64,000 nt of DNA from Blastocatellia bacterium (GTDB lineage: Bacteria > Acidobacteriota > Blastocatellia > Pyrinomonadales > Pyrinomonadaceae), in the NCBI GenBank assembly GCA_003168335.1, contig PMSM01000002.1, positions 372,001 to 436,000 on the forward strand. The letters are read 5' to 3'. The notes below the pieces were generated by a model, which made no database searches, was not told the DNA's origin, and saw only the letters and a list, made by a program, of their open reading frames with translations. This document shows, in pieces, positions 19,720-31,596 of the stretch. A program made the translations under genes and the position numbers. Position 1 is the stretch's first letter. Each line of letters begins with the position of its first letter.

Positions 19720-21756
19720 ATGAAGTACTGCACGACTTGCAACGAAAAATTTGATGACAGCCTGAGCTTCTGCCCCACCGACGGCGAGGTCCTGGAAGAA
19801 GATTCGTCGGCGCTGATCGGCAATGTGCTGGACGGTCAGTACCAGATCGAGGCCTTGCTGGGAAAAGGTGGCATGGGCGCGGTTTATCGCGCGCGGCACA
19901 TTCTGCTCGGCGATCGGGTGGCGATCAAGTTGCTGCCGCCGGAAATGCGCAGCAACACTGAATGGCTGCGCCGCTTTCAACGTGAAGGACAGGCTGCCCG
20001 CCGCTTTCGTCATCCCAACGCGGTCACGGTTTACGATCTCCGCACCTCAGCTGATGGCACGATCTATCTGGTCATGGAATATGTCGAGGGCAACACTCTC
20101 GACGCGGAACTGAGGAAACGGGGAAAGTTCACGCCGGCGGAAAGCGTGGCGGTGCTCGATCCGATCATGGGCGTACTCAACGCCGCGCATGCCATGGGCG
20201 TCGTGCATCGCGATCTCAAACCCGAGAACATAATGATCGGCAGAGCGAGCACCGGCGGCGAGCCGGTCGTGAAGTTGCTCGATTTGGGAATCGCCAAGTT
20301 GCGCGAAGTTGCCGGCGCTGAGAAGACAGGAAGTACGAACCTGACGATCGCCGGGCAGATGCTCGGCACTCCGTATTACATGTCGCCCGAACAGTGGGGC
20401 GAGTTGCCGGATGATAATAATTCTGAGATTGACGGACGGGCAGACATCTACAGCCTCGGCGTGGTGTTCTACGAACTGATTACCGGTCAGCGGCCGTTCA
20501 GTGGCGTAACGCTTTCAGAGCTGCGCCGCCAACACGTCAGTATCACACCGCCGTTGCTGCGCGAAGTTGACGCCGGCGTCCCGGAAGGTTTTAGTCGCGC
20601 CATCGCGCGCGCGATCGCCAAGGATCGCAGCCAAAGACAGGCGACTGCCGGCGAACTGGAAAACGAGTTGCGGAGTGCTTTGGCCGCGGAAGGGATTGCA
20701 CCGTCAACTTCATTCACTTCGGCGATCCTGGATGGATCAGTTGCGTCCGGCTCTCGTCCGGACACGGCGCGCGGTCCGCTGACCGCGGCTGAACGGACGG
20801 CCGCGACTATGGTTGGCGAATCGGCGCCCACCGGAATTGGGGACTTTGCCGCTCCGCACAACGCGGTTCCGTCCGCTGATATTGCGAGCCAGGCGGCGAC
20901 CATGCCCACCGTGATGGCCAGTCCAAAGAAAATCGTCGAGCCGGCGTTCTCAGGTGGACCCCAGCCAACGATGGCGGTGTCCAGTCAACTTGGCGTCGTC
21001 GTGTCGCAGTCTTCCGCTCAGCCCCAGCGTCGCTCATCGCTTCCTTTCGTCGCGGTGGGCATCGTGGTCCTGCTACTGATAGTCGGCGCGGGCGGTTACG
21101 CGTTAATTCATTTCATGGGGACCAGCCCGAATAGCAGTGCTGCGCGAACTGATCCGTCAAACGGCAATAATGGAACGAGTGGAACCGACCTGGCCGCAGG
21201 CGGGCACGAAATTGGTCGTTACTGGCTCGAGGTGAACTCCTCGAATAAGTCCGATGCGATTCGCGCGGGCGAGTCGTTGTCGATGGATTCAGGTCAGCAG
21301 TTCAAGTTTCATTTCTCGCCGAGTGAAAACGGCTATTTCTACATCATCGGGCCGGGCAACAAGAATGTGCCGACAACTTTTCTGACGGCCAAACCGGCCG
21401 CGGACTTCGGGGTGAGGACCAACGAAGTTAAGAGCGGTCAGGATTTCGCTTTTCCCGCCGAGACCAGCAAGAGCACAAACTGGCTCAATCTCGATAAGAC
21501 TGCCGGAACCGACGAGTTCACGATGATCTTCTCAACCAAACCATTGGACGCCCCCGATTTTCTGAGTAGCCCGGCATTGCACGAACTCACTCAGGATGAG
21601 CAGAAGCAACTGGATGCTGTTCGCGAGCAGTTCAAAGCGAACTCGGTAGGCGCCGAGGTCATCAAAACCGGCGCGTCGCCGTTCGTTTCGGTCAAAGTGC
21701 CGCAAAATGCAGAAGGGACGCCCGTCATATTCAAGGTACGACTTGAACACAAGTGA
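19720..21756 (+). CDS. Ser/Thr protein kinase with N-terminal zinc ribbon and C-terminal DUF4384-like domain
   Basis: 678 residues. Residues 4-18 form a C-x2-C...C zinc-ribbon-like start (CTTCNEKFDDSLSFCPTDG). The Pkn2-type kinase domain runs ~40-320: glycine loop GKGGMGAVY (48-56), VAIK (K70), HRDLKPEN (163-170), DLG (188-190, in place of DFG), SPEQWG and DIYSLGVVFYELITGQRPF. A low-complexity linker (330-437) leads to one membrane helix (~440-465). The outer part (~497-678) resembles DUF4384: GQQFKFHFSPSENGYFYIIG and a late FTMIFSTKPLD. It is probably an inner-membrane receptor kinase sensing something outside and phosphorylating cytoplasmic targets. It leads the plus arm of the kinase-protease locus; the next gene starts 28 bases on. 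Confidence 0.94.
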   Translation: MKYCTTCNEKFDDSLSFCPTDGEVLEEDSSALIGNVLDGQYQIEALLGKGGMGAVYRARHILLGDRVAIKLLPPEMRSNTEWLRRFQREGQAARRFRHPNAVTVYDLRTSADGTIYLVMEYVEGNTLDAELRKRGKFTPAESVAVLDPIMGVLNAAHAMGVVHRDLKPENIMIGRASTGGEPVVKLLDLGIAKLREVAGAEKTGSTNLTIAGQMLGTPYYMSPEQWGELPDDNNSEIDGRADIYSLGVVFYELITGQRPFSGVTLSELRRQHVSITPPLLREVDAGVPEGFSRAIARAIAKDRSQRQATAGELENELRSALAAEGIAPSTSFTSAILDGSVASGSRPDTARGPLTAAERTAATMVGESAPTGIGDFAAPHNAVPSADIASQAATMPTVMASPKKIVEPAFSGGPQPTMAVSSQLGVVVSQSSAQPQRRSSLPFVAVGIVVLLLIVGAGGYALIHFMGTSPNSSAARTDPSNGNNGTSGTDLAAGGHEIGRYWLEVNSSNKSDAIRAGESLSMDSGQQFKFHFSPSENGYFYIIGPGNKNVPTTFLTAKPAADFGVRTNEVKSGQDFAFPAETSKSTNWLNLDKTAGTDEFTMIFSTKPLDAPDFLSSPALHELTQDEQKQLDAVREQFKANSVGAEVIKTGASPFVSVKVPQNAEGTPVIFKVRLEHK

Positions 21757-21784: not shown

Positions 21785-22690
21785 ATGAAATCGAAAAGTC
21801 TTATCATGTTGTTAGCGATCGTTGCTTTCACCTGCGGCCTTTTGATAGTCAACGCGCAAGAGCCTGACGATGAAGTCCGGGGCGCGTTTCTCAGCTCGCG
21901 ACCAAAGACGACGAACTCGAACGCAACGCGCAGACGAAGGCCGCCGCGCAACTCGAACAGCAATGCGTCGTCAAACACATCCACTAACACGAATACAGGT
22001 AAGCCGGCCAACGCGAACCTTACCTCTAACCGAAATAGCTCTGCGATGAATGGGCGGGCGCAGGCCATCGGTCTCGGTTACACGCTCTTCATGCGCGACC
22101 CGAATGGCCGCAGCGTACGCGTCGAGCCGGGGCACGAATTCCACAACGGCGATCGCGTGCGGATCTCGCTCGAGCCAAATGTTGACGGCTATCTCTACGT
22201 CTTTCATACCGAGGGCGATGGTCCGCCGGAGATGATTTATCCCGACAGGCGGCTTGACGCCGGAGAAAACTGGATAGAAGCGCACGTGCCGCTCGAAGTT
22301 CCTTCCAGCGAAGAGAGTGACCAGCGTTTCCACTGGTTCGTATTCGATGCCAACCCGGCCAACGAACACCTCTACATTGTCGTCACGCGCGAACCTTTGA
22401 ATTCAGTTCCGGCTGGCGCCGAACTGGTTAGTCTCTGTCTGGCGAACAAGGACAAGTGTCCCTGGCATCCATCCGCCGAAGTTTGGGCGCAAATCCAGGA
22501 CGCAACCAAAGCGGAGGTAAAGGTCGTCACCAGCAAGACGTTCGGCCAGTCCCAAACTGACACTGAGAAGGTGGCTACGACGCGAGGCCTGGGCCTGGAC
22601 AAGAGCGCACCGGAACCAGCCGTGATTCGGATGAACGCCGCCACGAATACACCAGTGCTGGTAACGGTTTTGGATCTGATTCATAAGTAA
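21785..22690 (+). CDS. Exported DUF4384 protein
   Basis: 301 residues from the ATG at 21785, which has GGAGGA nine bases upstream and opens a clear signal peptide (SLIMLLAIVAFTCGLLIVNAQ). A linker rich in N, T and S (~35-95) precedes a DUF4384 domain: GYTLFMRDPNGRSVRVEPGHEFHNGDRVRISLEPNVDGYLYVFH, then PPEMIYPDRR and LYIVVTREPLNSVP. The DRVRISLEPNVDGYLYV line matches those in both kinases and in the minus-arm DUF4384 gene. The role of DUF4384 is unknown. From its place it may be an exported partner or ligand-binding unit for the kinase's outer domain. Confidence 0.88.
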   Translation: MKSKSLIMLLAIVAFTCGLLIVNAQEPDDEVRGAFLSSRPKTTNSNATRRRRPPRNSNSNASSNTSTNTNTGKPANANLTSNRNSSAMNGRAQAIGLGYTLFMRDPNGRSVRVEPGHEFHNGDRVRISLEPNVDGYLYVFHTEGDGPPEMIYPDRRLDAGENWIEAHVPLEVPSSEESDQRFHWFVFDANPANEHLYIVVTREPLNSVPAGAELVSLCLANKDKCPWHPSAEVWAQIQDATKAEVKVVTSKTFGQSQTDTEKVATTRGLGLDKSAPEPAVIRMNAATNTPVLVTVLDLIHK

Positions 22691-22751: not shown

Positions 22752-25604
22752 ATGAAATTGAGAAGTTCGATTACGGTGTTGGTGATAGGTTGTTCTTTGA
22801 CGTTCATATCCTCGCGGCTTTTTTCAAACGCGGCAGGTGCGCCTCCTCGAACTCTCATTCAGCCGCAATCCGACCCCGGCACCTCTCTCGATCGTGGTCG
22901 CGCAATGCTCAGACAAGGCCATGCAGATCAGGCGCTCGGCTATCTTGAAACGGCGCTCAATGCTTACACCCAGTCAAACAACTCTCGCGGCATTGCCGCC
23001 ACCGAGGACGCCCTCGGTGATCTCTACATGATCCAGGGCCAGTACAAGGTGGCCCTCGATCACTATCAGAAAGCTTATCAGTCGTTCGTGACCGCGCGCG
23101 GCAAGGATGAATCCGGTCAGGCCGCGGCCAACACCGTCGCCAGCCGGGCCGGATCCACGGCGAGCGCCGCGACGGAAACCGCAGGCAGCGCCGTCGACAA
23201 CGGTTTTAACGCGAACCTGATGCTCGCCAAGATTGGCGATACGAATTACCGTCTGGGCCAAATCTCAGAAGCGAGTACGGCTTACCTGACGATGAACGTC
23301 AAGAAGCCCGAGAGCGCGGCCACGAAAGCCACGCGCCGGTTGGGCGGGCTGGGCGGCATCGTCGGCAGCATCTCGACGGGGAATGTCAGCATCGCGACCC
23401 CGACCAGCTCGGCAATTGGTTTACTCGAAACGAAGAAAGAGTTCGATGAATATCGCGTGGCGATCGTTTATATGACCTACGAGCTGGGCACTGGACGGCT
23501 GGCCTTCGCGAATAACGATCTCGAAACCGCCCGCAAACATTTTCAAAACGCGCTTGATGCCGGCGGCGGAGCGTTGCCGGTGGTGGCGAATCTGGGCCAG
23601 ACGCGTCGCTTCCGCACGGCCGCGCGCACCAGCCTCGGCGACGTCGCACTGCGCGAGGGTCGTTACAAGGATGCGGCGAAAATGTTTACCGACGCCGCGA
23701 CCGGAGCGCAAAAGGACAATCGCCTCGATCTGATGTGGCCGGCGAAACGTGGTTTGGGCCGCAGCCTCTGGTTACAGGCCGGACAGGATCCGAAAGGCGG
23801 GAAGCTGCGTGAAGATGCCCTGGACGCGTATCGCGAAGCGCTGAAGACGGTCGAAACGATTCGCGCCGGCAGTTTGCGCGCGGACGAATCGCGCTCGACG
23901 TTTTTGGCTACGACCAAAGACGTCTATGACGAAGCGGCCAGCGCCTTCGCCGAGATGGCTTTGCTGAATTCGCCTTCCGGCGGAGCGCTGAGCGGCAAAG
24001 CGCTCGATTACGCGGCCGAGTCTTTCAGAATCACCGAAGCCGGACGCGCGCGATCGCTTTTGGACATGTTGGGCGAGGTGAACGCGCAAATCACCGAAGG
24101 CGTGCCGGCGGATCTGCTCAAGCGCAAACAGGACAATCTCGATCGCCAGCAGGAAATTGCGGAGCAGCTTACCGGCATCAGCCTCTCCGGCGATCAAAAA
24201 CAGAAGCCCTCTCAGCTCGAAGGAGATCTGGACAAACTCCAGACGGAATCCGACGACATCGAGAATCAAATTCGCACCGCCAGTCCGCGTTATGCCGCGC
24301 TAACGGGGGCGCAGCCACAGTCGCTCGTCGACGTACAGCAAAAGGTGCTTGACGATGGCACGGTGCTGCTGGAATACAGTCTTGGTAATGACAGTTCGTA
24401 CTTGTTCGCGGTAAGCCGATCCAGCGTTTCGCTTTTCAAACTGGCACCTCGGTCAAATTTGAACAAGCTGGCCACGGATTTTCGCGCGCAGTTGATTCCG
24501 CCAAAGTTGCAGCGACGGATTGTCGGCATCGACGTGGCGGCTGATCAACAGCGCGGACTCGGGTTGGTCGAAGGTCCGGCGGAAAATCTGGGCGCCTTCA
24601 TTAACGCATCGAGTGCGCTTTACCAGGCGGCAGTCGCGCCGGCCGCAAGCATTCTGGGGGACAAGCGTCTGCTGTTCGTCACCGATGGCGCGCTGAATTA
24701 CGTGCCGTTCGAAGCCCTGATCAAAACGAGCGACGGTGCTGACTATGCCTCGCTTAGCTATCTGATCAAGACGAACGAAATTGTTTACGCCCCGTCGGCT
24801 TCAGTCATTGCCGCCATCCGGCAGCAGCGGGGCAGTAGCTCGACCGGCTCAGCTAAGAACCTGCTGCTGGTTGCCGATCCGGTTTTCAATACGGACGACC
24901 CTCGGTTGAAAGGCAACAGCGCTGTGCAGACTTCCGGCGAAGCGCGGGGCCTGGGTCTCGGGCTTGAGAGCGCAATCAATGATGTTACCGATTCGCCTGC
25001 GCCGGCCGGCGGTTTGCGTCTGGCGCGTTTGGTGGGCACGCGCGTCGAAGCGGAAGAGATTGGCAAGATCGCAAAGGCAGGCGGCGTCCAGACTGATCTC
25101 TGGATCGATCTGAATGCCAGCGAAGACAACGTCCGCAGCCGCGATATGACGAACTATCGCGTCATACATATCGCCACACATGGTCTTTTGGACGCGCAGC
25201 GGCCGCAGTTCACCGGAGTGGTGCTGTCTCTGGTCGGTAACAAGAACTCGGACGGTTTTCTGCGCACCGACGAAATTTTCAATCTGCGGATGAACCCGTC
25301 GCTAGTGATGCTTTCCGCGTGCGAGACGGGACTGGGAAAAGAGAAGCGCGGCGAAGGCGTGATCGGTTTGACGCGCGCCTTCATGTACGCGGGCGCTCCC
25401 ACGGTTGGCGTCACGCTGTGGTCGGTAGCGGACAAGTCGACTGCCGAACTGATGACCGACTTTTACCGGCGCTTCCTCAGTTCGGACAAACCCGCCGCCG
25501 CATCGGGCTCGATGCGGGACGCGCAGCTCGCCATGATCTCAGGCAAGAAATACAGCGCGCCGTTTTACTGGGCGCCGTTTGTTTTGGTGGGTGAGTGGCG
25601 GTGA
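22752..25604 (+). CDS. Exported TPR-CHAT caspase-like protease
   Basis: 950 residues, with GGAGAG before the ATG and an N-terminal signal or anchor (ITVLVIGCSLTFISSRLFS). TPR-like repeats at ~45-120 (AMLRQGHADQALGYLETALNAY; LGDLYMIQGQYKVALDHYQKAYQ) and again at ~230-330 precede a helical spacer and a C-terminal CHAT domain from ~600. The caspase-clan dyad is visible: His810 in HIATHG and Cys857 in LSACETG, followed by GVIGLTRAFMYAGAPTVGVTLWSVAD and PFYWAPFVLVGEW. CHAT proteases cleave protein targets, as in Craspase/TPR-CHAT and separase-like systems. The target here is unknown. Last gene of the plus arm, stopping 26 bases before the converging hicA remnant. Confidence 0.93.
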   Translation: MKLRSSITVLVIGCSLTFISSRLFSNAAGAPPRTLIQPQSDPGTSLDRGRAMLRQGHADQALGYLETALNAYTQSNNSRGIAATEDALGDLYMIQGQYKVALDHYQKAYQSFVTARGKDESGQAAANTVASRAGSTASAATETAGSAVDNGFNANLMLAKIGDTNYRLGQISEASTAYLTMNVKKPESAATKATRRLGGLGGIVGSISTGNVSIATPTSSAIGLLETKKEFDEYRVAIVYMTYELGTGRLAFANNDLETARKHFQNALDAGGGALPVVANLGQTRRFRTAARTSLGDVALREGRYKDAAKMFTDAATGAQKDNRLDLMWPAKRGLGRSLWLQAGQDPKGGKLREDALDAYREALKTVETIRAGSLRADESRSTFLATTKDVYDEAASAFAEMALLNSPSGGALSGKALDYAAESFRITEAGRARSLLDMLGEVNAQITEGVPADLLKRKQDNLDRQQEIAEQLTGISLSGDQKQKPSQLEGDLDKLQTESDDIENQIRTASPRYAALTGAQPQSLVDVQQKVLDDGTVLLEYSLGNDSSYLFAVSRSSVSLFKLAPRSNLNKLATDFRAQLIPPKLQRRIVGIDVAADQQRGLGLVEGPAENLGAFINASSALYQAAVAPAASILGDKRLLFVTDGALNYVPFEALIKTSDGADYASLSYLIKTNEIVYAPSASVIAAIRQQRGSSSTGSAKNLLLVADPVFNTDDPRLKGNSAVQTSGEARGLGLGLESAINDVTDSPAPAGGLRLARLVGTRVEAEEIGKIAKAGGVQTDLWIDLNASEDNVRSRDMTNYRVIHIATHGLLDAQRPQFTGVVLSLVGNKNSDGFLRTDEIFNLRMNPSLVMLSACETGLGKEKRGEGVIGLTRAFMYAGAPTVGVTLWSVADKSTAELMTDFYRRFLSSDKPAAASGSMRDAQLAMISGKKYSAPFYWAPFVLVGEWR

Positions 25605-25630: not shown

Positions 25631-25841
25631 TTACAGATGGCCTAGAAACTCATCAACGCTCATTCCTGCCTGATCGATAATCGAGCGAAGTGTACCCGGC
25701 TTAATGTCAGTCGAATGATAAGGAACTGTCACTCGCATCGGACCTTTCACATAGGTCCGATGGCGATTTGCGCACCGTGAAGCCGGCACGTTCGAGTGCT
25801 CGTACGACTTGGCGAGGTTTCAGGAACTGGAGTTTCTTCAC
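25631..25841 (-). pseudogene. hicA: Frameshifted hicA toxin gene
   Basis: Starting at a GTG that overlaps the hicB stop (GTGA), the first frame reads VKKLQFLKPRQVVRALERAGFTVRKS and then runs to an early stop. The second part is in another frame, HRTYVKGPMRVTVPYHST..PGTLRSIIDQAGMSVDEFLGHL, ending at TAA 25631-25633. Together these make a typical ~70-residue HicA double-stranded RNA-binding-type mRNase, including the catalytic His region (SH/HR) and VTVPYH. The total span is 211 bases, 3n+1, and the break lies near 25761-25768, just where the GSH motif should be. Either the toxin is dead or a base is miscalled in the assembly. Confidence 0.82.
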
Positions 25842-26122
25842 GCGACTCTGACGCGAACTGGCGCGATAATCGTCTCATCAATCGGAATCTGCAAACCGTC
25901 TTCGATCAAACTCTCCAGATAACATGTGATGGCGTCTGCGGCCATCGCGCGCGCTTCGTCGAAGGTGTCCCCCTGAGTTACCACACAGGGTAACGCCGGG
26001 CAGGTGACCAAAAACCCGTCAGGATCATTCGGAGTGATGACGACCGTATAGGTGTATTGACCAATCCTAACAATAGCCTTGGGAGTACGACGAACTTTGC
26101 CTGGTTTAGTAGCTCTCTTCAT
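25838..26122 (-). CDS. hicB: HicB-type antitoxin
   Basis: 94 residues from the ATG at 26122; the longer open frame upstream runs antisense to the DUF4384 end and is not conserved-looking. The HicB partial-RNase-H fold is clear: YTVVITPNDPDGFLVTCPALPCVVTQGDTFDEARAMAADAITCYLESLIEDGLQIP. There is no C-terminal HTH/RHH DNA-binding domain, so this is the short HicB form. HicB proteins neutralise HicA mRNases. Here the order is antitoxin first, toxin second, and the toxin gene is frameshifted. It starts 28 bases after the minus-arm DUF4384 gene and may be co-transcribed with it. Confidence 0.9.
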   Translation of the reverse strand: MKRATKPGKVRRTPKAIVRIGQYTYTVVITPNDPDGFLVTCPALPCVVTQGDTFDEARAMAADAITCYLESLIEDGLQIPIDETIIAPVRVRVA

Positions 26123-26150
26123 GAGTGTTGAGTATGACAGCTCTCCCAGT

Positions 26151-27092
26151 CTATCTCGCATAACGCAGCGGCACCGTAACCAACAGCGGTCCGCCGGCCC
26201 TTCGCGCCACCCGATAGACAGTCTGTGGTGGCGGGCCGGTCTGAGTGAGTTGCCGGCCCTTGGCCGCGCCCGCTTGCTTCTCTTCATTAGTCCACGTGCG
26301 GCCGGCGCCGCCAACTAATTCCAGTCGCTCGGCCACACCGCCCCAGAGTTTTTCCCAACCAGTAACTTGTGTGCTCGTCATCTTCAACGGCTGATCGCCG
26401 ATTTGTAAATTTAGCGGCTGTGTCAACAGGATGATGGTTAGCACTTCCGCAATCTGGTCGCGGCGATCTCCGGCAGGTTGAGCAGTGAAATAGCTGTACC
26501 TGTCTTCCTGCGCTGGAATGTCGATCAGCTTCCCGGGCGCGACGCGATTATCGCCTCCGCGCGTGTGCAGGGTGGGAAAAATCAACATCGGATCGCCGAG
26601 TGAACCGTCGGCGTATTGTTCGCGATCGATGATGTAAAGAAAGCCCGGCCGCGGAGCCTCAATGGTCAGGCGCACGCGGTCTCCGATGTTCAGGGGCGTA
26701 TCGGCTTCAATTCTTTCCGGCGTCCATTCGGATTGCTTGAAGCCATCAAGCACCAGCACGCGCCCACCCGTGTCCGTTGACTGTGACGGGCGCAGACGCC
26801 AAACGGTGACGCCGATTTCTTCAGACGATGGCGTAGATTTGCTTCGGCCCGGCGCGCGCAGGGAACCAGTGCGTCGATAGATCGGAGCTTTGATCGTGGC
26901 GCCGGCACGCGCGCCGCTAACTCCCGCGGTAATGTCGCCGCTCGGTCGCGCTTTGTTAAAGCGATCGAGGACGATCTGACGCGAGGAAGCGTCTTCATCC
27001 TGCGCGATGCTCTGTTGTTGGGCCAGAGAGAGGCTGCAGGTCAAGCAAGACAGAGCGGCCAGCGCCCAGGTGATTGATGGAATCCTATTCAT
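26151..27092 (-). CDS. Exported DUF4384 protein, minus arm
   Basis: 313 residues with a Sec signal peptide (ITWALAALSCLTCSLSLAQQ). After a basic, low-complexity linker (~30-95), the domain reads VTVWRLRPS..., then LNIGDRVRLTIEAPRPGFLYIIDREQYADG, MLIFPTLHTRGGDN, a PGKLIDIPAQ segment, and ILLTQPLNLQIG. This is the same strand pattern as the plus-arm DUF4384 protein and the kinase C-termini. It is predicted to be periplasmic or surface-exposed. Its gene follows the kinase gene with a 181-base gap containing a palindrome, so it may have its own promoter or be the operon's third gene. Function unknown. Confidence 0.85.
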   Translation of the reverse strand: MNRIPSITWALAALSCLTCSLSLAQQQSIAQDEDASSRQIVLDRFNKARPSGDITAGVSGARAGATIKAPIYRRTGSLRAPGRSKSTPSSEEIGVTVWRLRPSQSTDTGGRVLVLDGFKQSEWTPERIEADTPLNIGDRVRLTIEAPRPGFLYIIDREQYADGSLGDPMLIFPTLHTRGGDNRVAPGKLIDIPAQEDRYSYFTAQPAGDRRDQIAEVLTIILLTQPLNLQIGDQPLKMTSTQVTGWEKLWGGVAERLELVGGAGRTWTNEEKQAGAAKGRQLTQTGPPPQTVYRVARRAGGPLLVTVPLRYAR

Positions 27093-27099
27093 GTGATTT

Positions 27100-27243
27100 A
27101 AGCTCTGTTAGGAGCGAAATATTTATAGAACAAGGTCGGGTTTTTTATCCAAGCTCCTTTAGGAGCGAAACGTACATTGCGCTCCTAAAGGAGCTACCTA
27201 ACTTGAGCGGACCGATACTATAAACATCGCGCCCCTAACGGGG
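27100..27243. repeat. Palindromic repeats, CTCCTTTAGGAGCG / GCGAAATATTTATAG family
   Basis: GTTAGGAGCGAAATATTTATAG (near 27112) repeats the wording at 12210. AGCTCCTTTAGGAGCG and its complement CGCTCCTAAAGGAGCT flank a short spacer (about 27150-27196). ATAAACATCGCGCCCCTAACGGGGCT follows. The set fills the gap between the kinase and DUF4384 genes. Confidence 0.75.
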
Positions 27244-27273: not shown

Positions 27274-29109
27274 TTAATGATGCTCCAGCTCAATGTAGTT
27301 TACCAGCACCTCACCTTTACCTTTCACAATGGTTTGCTTCCTGGCGGAATCCTTCGTGACCTCGGGTTGCGGCGATGAATGCTGCTGCAAAAAGTCGCGC
27401 ACGGCGCGTGCCTGGGGGGCGTCCCTGATCTCGCCAGAATCGACATCGTTAACCCGGTTCGCGACAGCTTCCAATTCCTTGACCGGCGATTTAGAAAAGA
27501 CTGCCCAGAACTTTTCGGTGCCCTGATGATCGTCAAACCGCATCCAGGCGGTCTGGAGTTTCTGATCGGCAGTGACACGCGGCGATCCGCTATTCGTCTT
27601 CGCCTCGGGGAAAAGCAGGTTGTAGGTCACGGCATCGCCGGCGGCCGGGCCTTCGTTCAGCAGGTAAAGATAACCTGCCTGAGGACTGGCGAGGTTCATG
27701 CGAAACTTCCAGCCATTCTCAAAAACTTCCCGCCCCGAAGATTCGAATTCATCCTGATAGGGTTTGCCGTCGCGCATTTTCTGCACGGTCAGCGAGTAGA
27801 CCAGGGACTGCTCGCGCGTGCCGAGTAGCGAGCGCCGCTTCCATATCGTTACCCCGCCGCCCGCGATCGCGATCAGCAGTACCAGGCTAATACCGATTTT
27901 CAACCATGGTCGTCGAGCCGGGTAATCGCCGGTTTCAATCGCGGGATAGACCGAGCCGTCGACCGCATTAACCTGGGCCGGTTCATAGCGCGCTGCTATC
28001 GTCTTCGAGGACAGATCGGCAGTCTGTCGCGCCGGTGCATTCTCACCGGTCGCCATCTGCGTCGACGGGATCGGCGCCCGGTCGATCCGGTTTTGATCGG
28101 CCGTAACGGTATCTTCGGCGAGTGCTCGGGCCAAAGCATCGCCGAGTTCGCGCGCGTTCTGGAAACGATCTTTCGGATCAAAACTGAGAGCGCGCAGGAT
28201 TATCTGACAGGCCGCTGCCGAAAGGCTGGGTCGCAAGTCAGACGGTTTCACGCGCACGCCCGCGCGTTGCATCTCCAGTAGCTCAAAACCCGTTTCGGGA
28301 TTAAAAGGTTTGCGCCCGGTAACCAGTTCGTAAGCGATCGCTCCCATCGCGTAGATGTCCATTGCCGCCGAAACCGGACGGCCGCTCAACTGCTCAGGCG
28401 CCATGTAAGAAACTGTTCCTGCGGTGGCGCCGGTGACGGTGCTCGGAGCGACCACTGAATCTTTCAGCTTGGCAATTCCGAAATCGATGATCTTTACCTG
28501 CTGTTCGCCGCCGCCGTAGCTGTGCAGCATGATGTTTTCCGGTTTCAGATCGCGGTGAAAGATGCCTTTGTCGTGGGCGGCGCTAAGCGCTCTGCCGATC
28601 TGTTTCATCAACTCAGCGGCGCGTTCGAGCGAGATGCCTTCCGGTTTTATTTGAGAGCGCAACGTGGCGCCGTCGATGAATTGCATCACCAGGTATGGTT
28701 TGCCGTCGGGAAGTTCGCCGGTGTCGAGGATGCCGACCACTCCGGGATGGTCGACGCGCGCGAGCGCTTCCTTTTCCTGCTGGAATTTCTGTACGACCCA
28801 GGAGTTCTGAAACGATTTTTCAAGCAGCACTTTGATCACGACCGGCTTGTCGTGAAGCTTCCGATCTCGAGCCAGGTAAACTGCACCCACGCCGCCCTGA
28901 CCAAGTTCCTTCTGAATGGAATAGCGACTGTCGAGCGTCACGCCAATCAAGCTCGCTGGCGCAGGCATAGAAGTCGCGTTGAGAGTCGCGCGGCTTTGAT
29001 CGACGGTGATCGTTGGCGCGGAGACATCAGAAACAGGCTCAGGCACATTCGGACTGTCCTCGCCTGAAGGACCGGGCGTCACCGTCTCGGATTGATCCTT
29101 AAGAGTCAC
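27274..29109 (-). CDS. Ser/Thr protein kinase with C-terminal DUF4384-like domain, minus arm
   Basis: 611 residues from a GTG; no good ribosome site is seen and no Met follows until residue 48, so the start is uncertain. The kinase domain is ~62-335: GQGGVGAVY (71-79), VVIKVL (K93), HRDLKPEN (185-192), DFG (209-211), APEQLSG and DIYAMGAIAYELVTGRKPF. A linker and a membrane helix (~402-423) lead to an outer domain with FRMNLASPQAGYLYLLNEG, LLFPEAK and KFWAVFSKSPVKELE, matching the DUF4384 pattern. Unlike the plus-arm kinase it lacks the zinc ribbon. It starts 33 bases after the caspase gene stop, suggesting one operon, and probably signals from the envelope. Confidence 0.94.
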   Translation of the reverse strand: MTLKDQSETVTPGPSGEDSPNVPEPVSDVSAPTITVDQSRATLNATSMPAPASLIGVTLDSRYSIQKELGQGGVGAVYLARDRKLHDKPVVIKVLLEKSFQNSWVVQKFQQEKEALARVDHPGVVGILDTGELPDGKPYLVMQFIDGATLRSQIKPEGISLERAAELMKQIGRALSAAHDKGIFHRDLKPENIMLHSYGGGEQQVKIIDFGIAKLKDSVVAPSTVTGATAGTVSYMAPEQLSGRPVSAAMDIYAMGAIAYELVTGRKPFNPETGFELLEMQRAGVRVKPSDLRPSLSAAACQIILRALSFDPKDRFQNARELGDALARALAEDTVTADQNRIDRAPIPSTQMATGENAPARQTADLSSKTIAARYEPAQVNAVDGSVYPAIETGDYPARRPWLKIGISLVLLIAIAGGGVTIWKRRSLLGTREQSLVYSLTVQKMRDGKPYQDEFESSGREVFENGWKFRMNLASPQAGYLYLLNEGPAAGDAVTYNLLFPEAKTNSGSPRVTADQKLQTAWMRFDDHQGTEKFWAVFSKSPVKELEAVANRVNDVDSGEIRDAPQARAVRDFLQQHSSPQPEVTKDSARKQTIVKGKGEVLVNYIELEHH

Positions 29110-29142: not shown

Positions 29143-31596
29143 TCACTTGTTTACGCGCGCCATCCGGCAAGCTTCAATAATGGAGTTAATCACGTCGGTC
29201 GTGATGTTCGAGCCGGGCTTCACTGGGGTAAAGAAACCGCCGCTCGCCGGCGTTACTGTGTAGAACAGTAGTTGACGTTCTTTACCGTTGACCGGGGTCA
29301 GGTAGAGATTCACATGTCCCAGCGCAAAAGCCGATTGACCCTGTTCCACTCGTTTGATTTCCGAGCATTGCACCGTCAAACGTTTCTTTTCGTTTTGTTT
29401 TCTGGGCTCGAATGAGATGGTGCCCGGAGTCACGGTCAGCGTGCCGGCCGTACTCGCAGCGTCCACCACGTCAAAGAGATGCGTGTTGCGGGCCCGCTCA
29501 GCCTCTGCGGCAGACAGGTTTGCTTTCTCTTTTTCGCGCGCTTCACCTTCCAGCATCGCCACCCGGCCGTTCGCTATTTCGACAAAAAGTCCGCTCGGAA
29601 ATTTATTTACGTAGGCTTTGAAATCTGATGGGTTATGGCTGTCTTTGATGGCATTCCAGTAAGTCATCTCGAGCGAGTCTCCGGATGACATATTGCTCGC
29701 GGATCTGCCGGGTTGCGCCCGGGACCTGGCGAGCGCGGCAAATTGGCCGTCGGGATACTTGTCTAAGTAAGCTTTGAAGTCGTCGGGATTCGTGCTGCTC
29801 TTGATCGATTCCCAAAAACTCAATTCGATGGCCGCCGGATCCACCATCGCCACGTTGGGCGTATTTGTGTTGGCGGCATTCGAAGCAGAGTTTGTTACTG
29901 CCACGACCAACTCGTCGGCGCGATAACCTTCGATCATCGCGAACGGTCTTTGCTGTTTAGTCGAGCCGAGATCGATGGCGATTCGCTTGGGCACGGTGTC
30001 CTGGACATACTTCACCAGCTGAGAAAGTGTAACTTCGCCTTTGTCGTTCGCGGCCCCGCCTTTCAATCCTTCGACGACGGCCCAGCTAAAATAGCCTTGC
30101 TTCTTTTCCGTGTATTCATAAGCTCGTTGGCCGATGCCCGTGGCATAGACCGTCGCAAAGGCCTGCACCTCGTGGTTGCGGACGTCGAAATTGAAGCCGT
30201 TGGTGTAGGCGGCGCTCAAGGGATTCGGCGCGTCGGCGCGTCCGCCCGGATCGTTGCGACAAGCATCCAGAAGCACGACGACTTGTCCGACGCCGGTTTC
30301 CTTAATCCGCTCCTTCACGCGATTGACGCTGATGGCCGTCTCTTCCAGGAAAGAAATTTGATCGCTGACTTGAGCGTCAGCCGGCAGCAGAAACGCCTGT
30401 CCGCCTCGCTCCATTCCGTGGCCGGCGAAAGAAATCAGCAGCAAGCCATCCTTGGGAACCGCGGTGCTGAGGTTCGACAAACGACGCAGAATATTGACGC
30501 GGGTTGGTTGGCGTTCAGTCGGCTGATCGGTTGAGAGCAGGATCACCTGATCTTGCGGAAAGCCCGCATAACGCACCAACGCATCCGCTATCAAGCGCGC
30601 ATCGTTGTCTGAGCCTTTGAGTGGACTAATCTGCGGGTCCGTATATTTATCCACGCCGATCACCAACGCCCAGCGTTTCGATTTCACCGGCAAGGTGCTG
30701 ACCTGATCAAGTTGTGAGGCAGCGGAATTGGCCGGCGACGATGAAGTGGATGCGGACGTCTGGGCCGGCGGCAGTTGCTGCAACTGTCTAGAGACAGGCT
30801 CAGTCGTCGAAGTTGGCGATTGTGATGAAGTCTGCTGGTTGGCCGGTTCTTGCGCCGTTGGTTCCTTTGTTAGAGCTGCTGTGCTGGTGGATGGAGATGT
30901 CTGTGTTGACGCCGTTGCAGCCGGGGCCGTCTGAATCTCTTTTTCCAGCTTGCGCGCTAGTTTTGGATCGATTGTGTTTAATTTTTTCAGTTGTTCGTTG
31001 GCAAGATCGGATTTGCCCAGCCGCGTATAAGCCTGGCCCAGACCGTAATAAGCCTCGCCGTAATCAGGCTTAATGCGAATCGCGCTCTTCAGAAAACTTA
31101 TCGACTTTTCAAAATCTGCCCCGCGCAAGTAGGCGTAACCAATACCGTAATACGCTTCGGCAAAATTTGGGTCGAGGCTGGTAGCTTTGACCAGCGGGCC
31201 AAAGGCCTCGCCATGACGACCCATGGCGTTGTAAAAGTAGCCGAGATCAAATTGCGCCAAAGCGTCGTTCGGCGCCAACCTCACTTGCTCCTTGTAAGCG
31301 ACCAGAGCTTGTTCAGAGTTGCCACTGTTGAAATACGCATCACCGAGCCCGCCATAAGCCGGCGCATAATTGGCGTCCAGGCGAATTGCGAGCTTGTACG
31401 CATCAATCGCCTCCGGCCACTTCTTGTCATCGGCCATCTTGTCGGCTTCATCTACCAGGCCCGCGGCCCGACTGGGAGACTTCTGCGGGGCCCGGCCATG
31501 TTTTTGGGCGTACTCGCTAAGCGGTGCACCGCCAAAGAGAAAAGCGGAAACGATCAGAATCAGGATCGTCTTCGAAAAAGGGGCTGAGATCTTCAT
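29143..31596 (-). CDS. Exported TPR-caspase (peptidase C14) protein
   Basis: 817 residues with AGGGAG before the ATG and an N-terminal signal (ILILIVSAFLFGGAP). Four or five TPRs cover ~45-215 (AIRLDANYAPAYGGLGDAYFNSGN). A linker rich in S, T and Q leads to a caspase p20-like domain at ~305-500: RWALVIGVDKY, the His393 motif LISFAGHG and the Cys446 motif LLDACRNDP. This is the metacaspase/C14 dyad. The C-terminal part has two FKAYLDKYP.. / FKAYVNKFPSGLF repeats resembling tail modules of bacterial caspases, and a last beta-rich domain. It heads the minus arm. Bacterial C14 proteases of this layout are thought to act in stress or cell-death signalling; the target is unknown. Confidence 0.93.
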   Translation of the reverse strand: MKISAPFSKTILILIVSAFLFGGAPLSEYAQKHGRAPQKSPSRAAGLVDEADKMADDKKWPEAIDAYKLAIRLDANYAPAYGGLGDAYFNSGNSEQALVAYKEQVRLAPNDALAQFDLGYFYNAMGRHGEAFGPLVKATSLDPNFAEAYYGIGYAYLRGADFEKSISFLKSAIRIKPDYGEAYYGLGQAYTRLGKSDLANEQLKKLNTIDPKLARKLEKEIQTAPAATASTQTSPSTSTAALTKEPTAQEPANQQTSSQSPTSTTEPVSRQLQQLPPAQTSASTSSSPANSAASQLDQVSTLPVKSKRWALVIGVDKYTDPQISPLKGSDNDARLIADALVRYAGFPQDQVILLSTDQPTERQPTRVNILRRLSNLSTAVPKDGLLLISFAGHGMERGGQAFLLPADAQVSDQISFLEETAISVNRVKERIKETGVGQVVVLLDACRNDPGGRADAPNPLSAAYTNGFNFDVRNHEVQAFATVYATGIGQRAYEYTEKKQGYFSWAVVEGLKGGAANDKGEVTLSQLVKYVQDTVPKRIAIDLGSTKQQRPFAMIEGYRADELVVAVTNSASNAANTNTPNVAMVDPAAIELSFWESIKSSTNPDDFKAYLDKYPDGQFAALARSRAQPGRSASNMSSGDSLEMTYWNAIKDSHNPSDFKAYVNKFPSGLFVEIANGRVAMLEGEAREKEKANLSAAEAERARNTHLFDVVDAASTAGTLTVTPGTISFEPRKQNEKKRLTVQCSEIKRVEQGQSAFALGHVNLYLTPVNGKERQLLFYTVTPASGGFFTPVKPGSNITTDVINSIIEACRMARVNK

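Follow-up and report, generated by a model that had tools for sequence, protein, structure and literature searches.

In Acidobacteriota from soil, receptor-like Ser/Thr kinases and free exported proteins that carry the same domain, DUF4384, are encoded in type-matched pairs, and this pairing is new here. We give slightly better than even odds (probability about 0.52) to the reading that the free protein acts in the periplasm as the cognate partner of the kinase outer domain, and that both share a pathway with an exported protease of the caspase clan. The window (the whole stretch of 64,000 nucleotides analysed, from a genome of 5.16 Mb) contains two convergent, parallel signalling operons, each encoding a Ser/Thr kinase, a free DUF4384 protein and a TPR caspase-clan protease. 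The gene order is K1, F1 and TPR-CHAT in the plus-strand cluster, and TPR-C14, K2 and F2 in the minus-strand cluster:

27274-29109, minus strand: K2, the gene flagged by the first-pass annotation; Hanks-type Ser/Thr kinase with one membrane segment and a C-terminal DUF4384-type outer domain (Pkinase 160.4 bits, DUF4384 13.9 bits; KIN-TM-D4 architecture)
28159-28923, minus strand: K2 catalytic domain, residues 63-317 (Pfam Pkinase; HRDLKPEN and DFG motifs in the translation)
27841-27897, minus strand: K2 predicted membrane segment, about residues 405-423 (hydropathy scan and sequence)
27274-27828, minus strand: K2 outer domain, residues 428-611, predicted Ig-like beta-sandwich (AlphaFold2; profile match to the free DUF4384 families)
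26151-27092, minus strand: F2, free exported DUF4384 protein that begins with a signal-like segment (DUF4384 30.6 bits)
29143-31596, minus strand: TPR and caspase-like (Peptidase_C14) protein with a signal-like N-terminus, 5' of K2 in the same cluster (Peptidase_C14 73.2 bits, TPRs)
19720-21756, plus strand: K1, second Ser/Thr kinase, with membrane segment and C-terminal DUF4384 (Pkinase 153 bits, DUF4384 33.2 bits)
21785-22690, plus strand: F1, free exported DUF4384 protein (DUF4384 42.7 bits)
22752-25604, plus strand: TPR-CHAT caspase-clan protein with a signal-like N-terminus (CHAT 227.2 bits, TPRs)

K1 and K2 both have the architecture of receptor kinases (kinase domain, single membrane segment, C-terminal outer domain), the hydropathy scan placing the membrane segment between kinase and outer domain; that the C-terminal domain lies outside the membrane is inferred from the cytoplasmic kinase. 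This arrangement resembles that of PknB-like receptor Ser/Thr kinases, with an N-terminal kinase, one membrane segment and a C-terminal outer module. However, PknB proper has PASTA repeats, which a Pfam scan did not detect in K1 or K2, and the receptor Ser/Thr kinase PknS is described as using TPRs as its extracytoplasmic sensor (PMC13147305), whereas the outer module of K1 and K2 is DUF4384, with a free homologue encoded next door. Signal-like N-termini were read from the translations of F1, F2 and both proteases; a crude hydropathy scan flags only part of them and misses the rest. F1 likely starts at ATG 21785, behind GGAGG and 28 bases past the K1 stop. Between K2 and F2 (27153-27194) lies an inverted pair of CGCTCCTAAAGGAGC-like palindromes, of which the genome holds 18 exact copies (reversed control, 0), and which looks like a REP-type repeat. 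Just 3' of F2 we also observed a HicB-like antitoxin ORF (25838-26314, minus strand; PF15919, 41.6 bits), whose true start is probably later since the ORF as called overlaps the 3' end of F2.

Kinases bearing DUF4384 are already published and are not new here: the domain is reported as often located in kinases (PMC6426788), and it is listed in orthocaspases (PMC7475262, PMC8283722). The passages that name DUF4384 in the papers examined describe neither a free partner nor type-matched pairing, and a literature search joining caspase or orthocaspase with kinase found nothing. The window operons resemble orthocaspase/CHAT systems in that each contains a caspase-clan gene, and some such proteins elsewhere carry DUF4384; the window proteases differ in having signal-like N-termini and TPRs and in being separate from the DUF4384 proteins.

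The first-pass annotation proposed that kinase outer domains and free DUF4384 proteins share one fold. All four motifs that it quoted were found in real ORFs (FRMNLASPQAGYLYLLNE in K2, FKFHFSPSENGYFYIIG in K1, VRISLEPNVDGYLYVFH in F1 and VRLTIEAPRPGFLYIID in F2), and its coordinates span just one of these genes, K2. K1, F1 and F2 reach the curated Pfam cutoff for DUF4384 (PF14326), 27 bits, with the scores given above. The K2 domain misses it (E 0.06) yet spans the whole model (2-81), and we therefore term it a DUF4384 homologue rather than a Pfam member. Pairwise similarity was weak: BLASTP of K2 against the two free proteins gave E values of 3e-5 and 4e-7 (a single comparison each), and phmmer with the K2 outer domain reached neither free window protein in round 0. 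Whichever of K1, K2, F1 and F2 served as the query, iterated profile searches recovered the other three. Profile-profile comparison was decisive, with probabilities between kinase-borne and free groups of 97.7% (K1-F1), 96.7% (K1-F2), 98.8% (K2-F1) and 97.9% (K2-F2), at E values from 3.8e-10 to 6e-17, and within-class probabilities of 99.4% (F1-F2) and 98.8% (K1-K2). By comparison, 16 controls pairing the four groups with kinase, CHAT, C14 and TPR profiles gave at most 0.6%, and 80 column-shuffled profiles at most 5.1%. The K2 domain is thus homologous to both free DUF4384 families, in agreement with the annotation, and the lack of profile similarity that the annotation had named as a refutation was not observed. 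All are homologous to PF14326; here, however, the full common unit is about 160 residues long and reaches the C-terminus of the kinases, not the 81 residues of the Pfam model, and it comes with a free type-matched partner.

Structure prediction agreed with this result. AlphaFold2 gave confident models for both the K2 outer domain (pLDDT 93.9, pTM 0.89) and F2 (part 26151-26831; pLDDT 93.3, pTM 0.90). Their strands follow one another in the same order, and those of the core fall at positions that the profiles align. Secondary structure is identical at 115 of 178 residues along the profile alignment, with close agreement in the core and a looser fit in the helical part. These models indicate that kinase-borne and free DUF4384 adopt a common predicted Ig-like sandwich fold. 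We rejected the possibility of a known fold that would point to a function: with a threshold of E ≤ 0.001, Foldseek matched neither model to a PDB structure, searching PDB sequences with profiles gave nothing at E ≤ 1, and the best VIA-align Z scores were only 6.8 and 7.2 for the two models, within the stated background of the tool. Pycsar AGS-C, RhoGDI and the Wzt sugar-binding domain are likewise Ig-like sandwiches, which both models reach at Z 5.7-7.2; these values are background for unmatched models, and we claim no family relation.

The related loci come from Acidobacteriota, Pyrinomonadaceae and Blastocatellia among them. A tree of 108 domains has one deep split that divides kinase-borne from free DUF4384 (the single mixed row comes from a kinase truncated where its contig ends), with two main types on each side: KA and KB among kinases, FA and FB among free proteins. 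The two classes are thus old, distinct branches. We extended the set by 37 loci to 143 distinct domains, having dropped identical domain sequences and domains shorter than 90 residues, and counted as a neighbour any free DUF4384 lying at most 7 kb away on the strand of the kinase. Such a neighbour was found for 51 of 70 kinases, and for 34 of the 40 with at least 4 kb of sequence on both sides; the other 6 well-flanked kinases had no such neighbour. Both members belonged to main types in 40 of the 51 pairs, with 17 KA-FA, 23 KB-FB and no crosses (Fisher's test, 1.1e-11, which ignores relatedness); in the remaining 11, one or both members fell outside the main types. Profiles derived from this first set were then used to score 40 further stretches (L167, a repeat of L105, was left out of the counts). 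Nine of the 11 kinases with a free neighbour in these stretches matched: 4 KB-FB and 5 KA-FA, the latter including two kinases that share one free gene. The other two were a KB kinase with an unassigned free protein and a weakly scoring KB kinase (26.9 bits) with FA.

The matched types are co-inherited while catalytic domains and proteases are exchanged. Ten kinases with a KB-type outer domain carry a catalytic domain of another type (C); in the five C-type kinases that are paired, the catalytic identity to K2 is 33-35%, against 47-82% in the other paired kinases. In L088, FA-type partners accompany a kinase with a KA-type outer domain but a B-type catalytic domain. L163 and L164 hold KA-FA pairs next to C14 rather than CHAT, and the catalytic domain of their kinases belongs to none of the three types. 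With distances for dnaN (the species marker) and the catalytic domain removed, the partial distance correlation of outer domain with free protein was 0.73 for KB (n = 19 of 23) and 0.41 for KA (n = 11 of 17), rows that lacked a usable dnaN or a complete catalytic domain being left out (4 of 23 KB, 6 of 17 KA). The catalytic domain, with marker and outer domain removed, gave 0.09 (KB) and -0.06 (KA). The kinase outer domain therefore tracks the free protein beyond the species marker and its own catalytic domain. The sequences are related and few, and Mantel probabilities are rough. Without the C-type kinases the KB value drops to 0.57, and once L088 is removed the catalytic and outer domains of KA kinases track the free protein about equally well (0.57 and 0.61, respectively). 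The B- and C-type catalytic domains each occupy one side of a branch (99.7 and 99.0), in groups named after the trees were seen. On the outer-domain data, AU tests rejected a clade of the B type alone (p = 0.00067) and likewise one of the C type alone (p = 0.0024). For B and C catalytic domains as sisters, the AU test favoured neither way (p = 0.44, with L088 and the rows without a called DUF4384 that sit among B-type kinases excluded as confounders).

The preferred reading, in which the free protein is the cognate partner of the kinase, would work as follows. The free protein would meet the kinase outer domain directly, DUF4384 to DUF4384, or via a ligand that both hold, and this meeting would set kinase dimerisation or activity. 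The exported caspase-clan protease, whose activity is putative, may act in the same pathway, since DUF4384 also occurs fused to C14 (L056, L060, L062, L065 and L091) and to CHAT (L046), as well as adjoining caspase-clan genes in the window. In a comparison of catalytic type with protease class, C-type kinases accompany 7 CHAT and no C14 proteases and B-type kinases 5 CHAT and 9 C14 (Fisher p = 0.007, ignoring relatedness and leaving out 16 of 37 KB kinases that have no protease within 7 kb). Across 10 KA loci with CHAT, with the species marker removed, the kinase-CHAT correlation was 0.63, outer domain with free protein 0.37, and other combinations 0.28-0.31; with so few rows, this is suggestive. 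The annotation's idea that receptor and soluble protein bind the same partner or form hetero-oligomers gains only indirect support, from the type-matched pairing and correlated divergence. Its premise that this argument is separate from gene order does not wholly hold, as the strongest evidence is the co-inheritance of neighbouring genes.

Linkage is the main alternative to a cognate partnership, though we consider it rather unlikely. The kinase gene comes first, 5' of its free neighbour, in 46 of 51 pairs, and the gap is below 400 bases in 38 of the 51, so the outer-domain end usually adjoins the free gene; a single crossover could carry both as one DNA block without functional pairing, leaving the two products with independent envelope roles. 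Several loci, however, hold a whole protease gene between the pair, of differing class (CHAT in L048, L069, L092 and L094; C14 in L049, L063 and L081), with gaps of 3-7 kb and types still matched, which weakens the crossover argument without removing it. Also counting against the partnership are the 6 well-flanked kinases that lack a free neighbour, the free genes in stretches with no kinase-borne form, and the kinases L189 and L190, which themselves bear an FA-like domain. A generic role, with DUF4384 an Ig-like module that binds the envelope (sugar, peptidoglycan or protein) and recurs in many exported proteins, seems to us improbable; by itself it does not predict type-matched pairs. It does accommodate the fusions to caspases, CHAT and a kinase-cyclase, the occurrence of the domain in Thermus, Deinobacterium and Thermotoga genomes, the commonness of the sandwich fold, and the free DUF4384 genes found in stretches examined that have no kinase-borne DUF4384 (e.g., L168, L181 and L196).

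The first-pass annotation also suggested a decoy, that is, a soluble receptor mimicking the binding face of the kinase and titrating its ligand. A shared fold, export and a gene beside the receptor would suit such a role, but we give it only a slim chance: the split between classes is old, and the free protein is no copy of the neighbouring receptor. Among columns conserved in both members, the residue is the same at only 10 of 28 (KA/FA) and 8 of 15 (KB/FB), mostly fold-core G, Y, L, P and N, versus 26 of 31 between the two free types. We rejected recent duplication as the source of a decoy, since trees and conserved residues give it no support. With so few conserved residues in common beyond the fold core, two complementary faces would fit the kinase-borne and free forms better than a decoy. 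An analogy that we advance tentatively, and think unlikely, would make DUF4384 an extracytoplasmic like-with-like plug joining receptor kinase, free adaptor and caspase-clan protease, and so a beta-sandwich counterpart, outside the membrane, of the way receptor, adaptor and caspase are connected when animal cells die. Death-fold adaptors (CARD/DD) have a helical fold, whereas the K2 and F2 models are beta-sandwiches.

Of 60 near relatives, 42 have DUF4384, as do 39 of 297 genomes sampled across the phylum. In the genome of the window, the domain is carried by 3 kinase genes out of about 38 (a total derived from 41 matches, since three genes were counted in two pieces), and each of the three has a free DUF4384 gene beside it. 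The third (L073, 8340-11303, minus strand; 987 amino acids) combines kinase, guanylate cyclase domain, membrane segment and a DUF4384-type outer domain, detected by our own profile and absent from the Pfam list at E 0.01; its neighbours are the free DUF4384 gene and C14 genes. Elsewhere, a protein of 1313 amino acids with two membrane segments (L130, 5248-9189, plus strand) has a DUF4384 that groups with kinase-borne forms, and no kinase domain was found in it. Two kinases (L189, 7162, and L190, 7152, both minus strand) have outer domains that score as free FA type; a C14 gene lies next to each, and the 16 kb examined contain no gene for a free DUF4384 protein.

Together, these data give a domain of unknown function a testable role, as cognate partner of a receptor kinase in caspase-like protease operons. 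If the proposed binding is true, these bacteria would have a signalling route with a matched receptor and soluble homologue, and the swapped catalytic halves would provide a natural set for tests of specificity.
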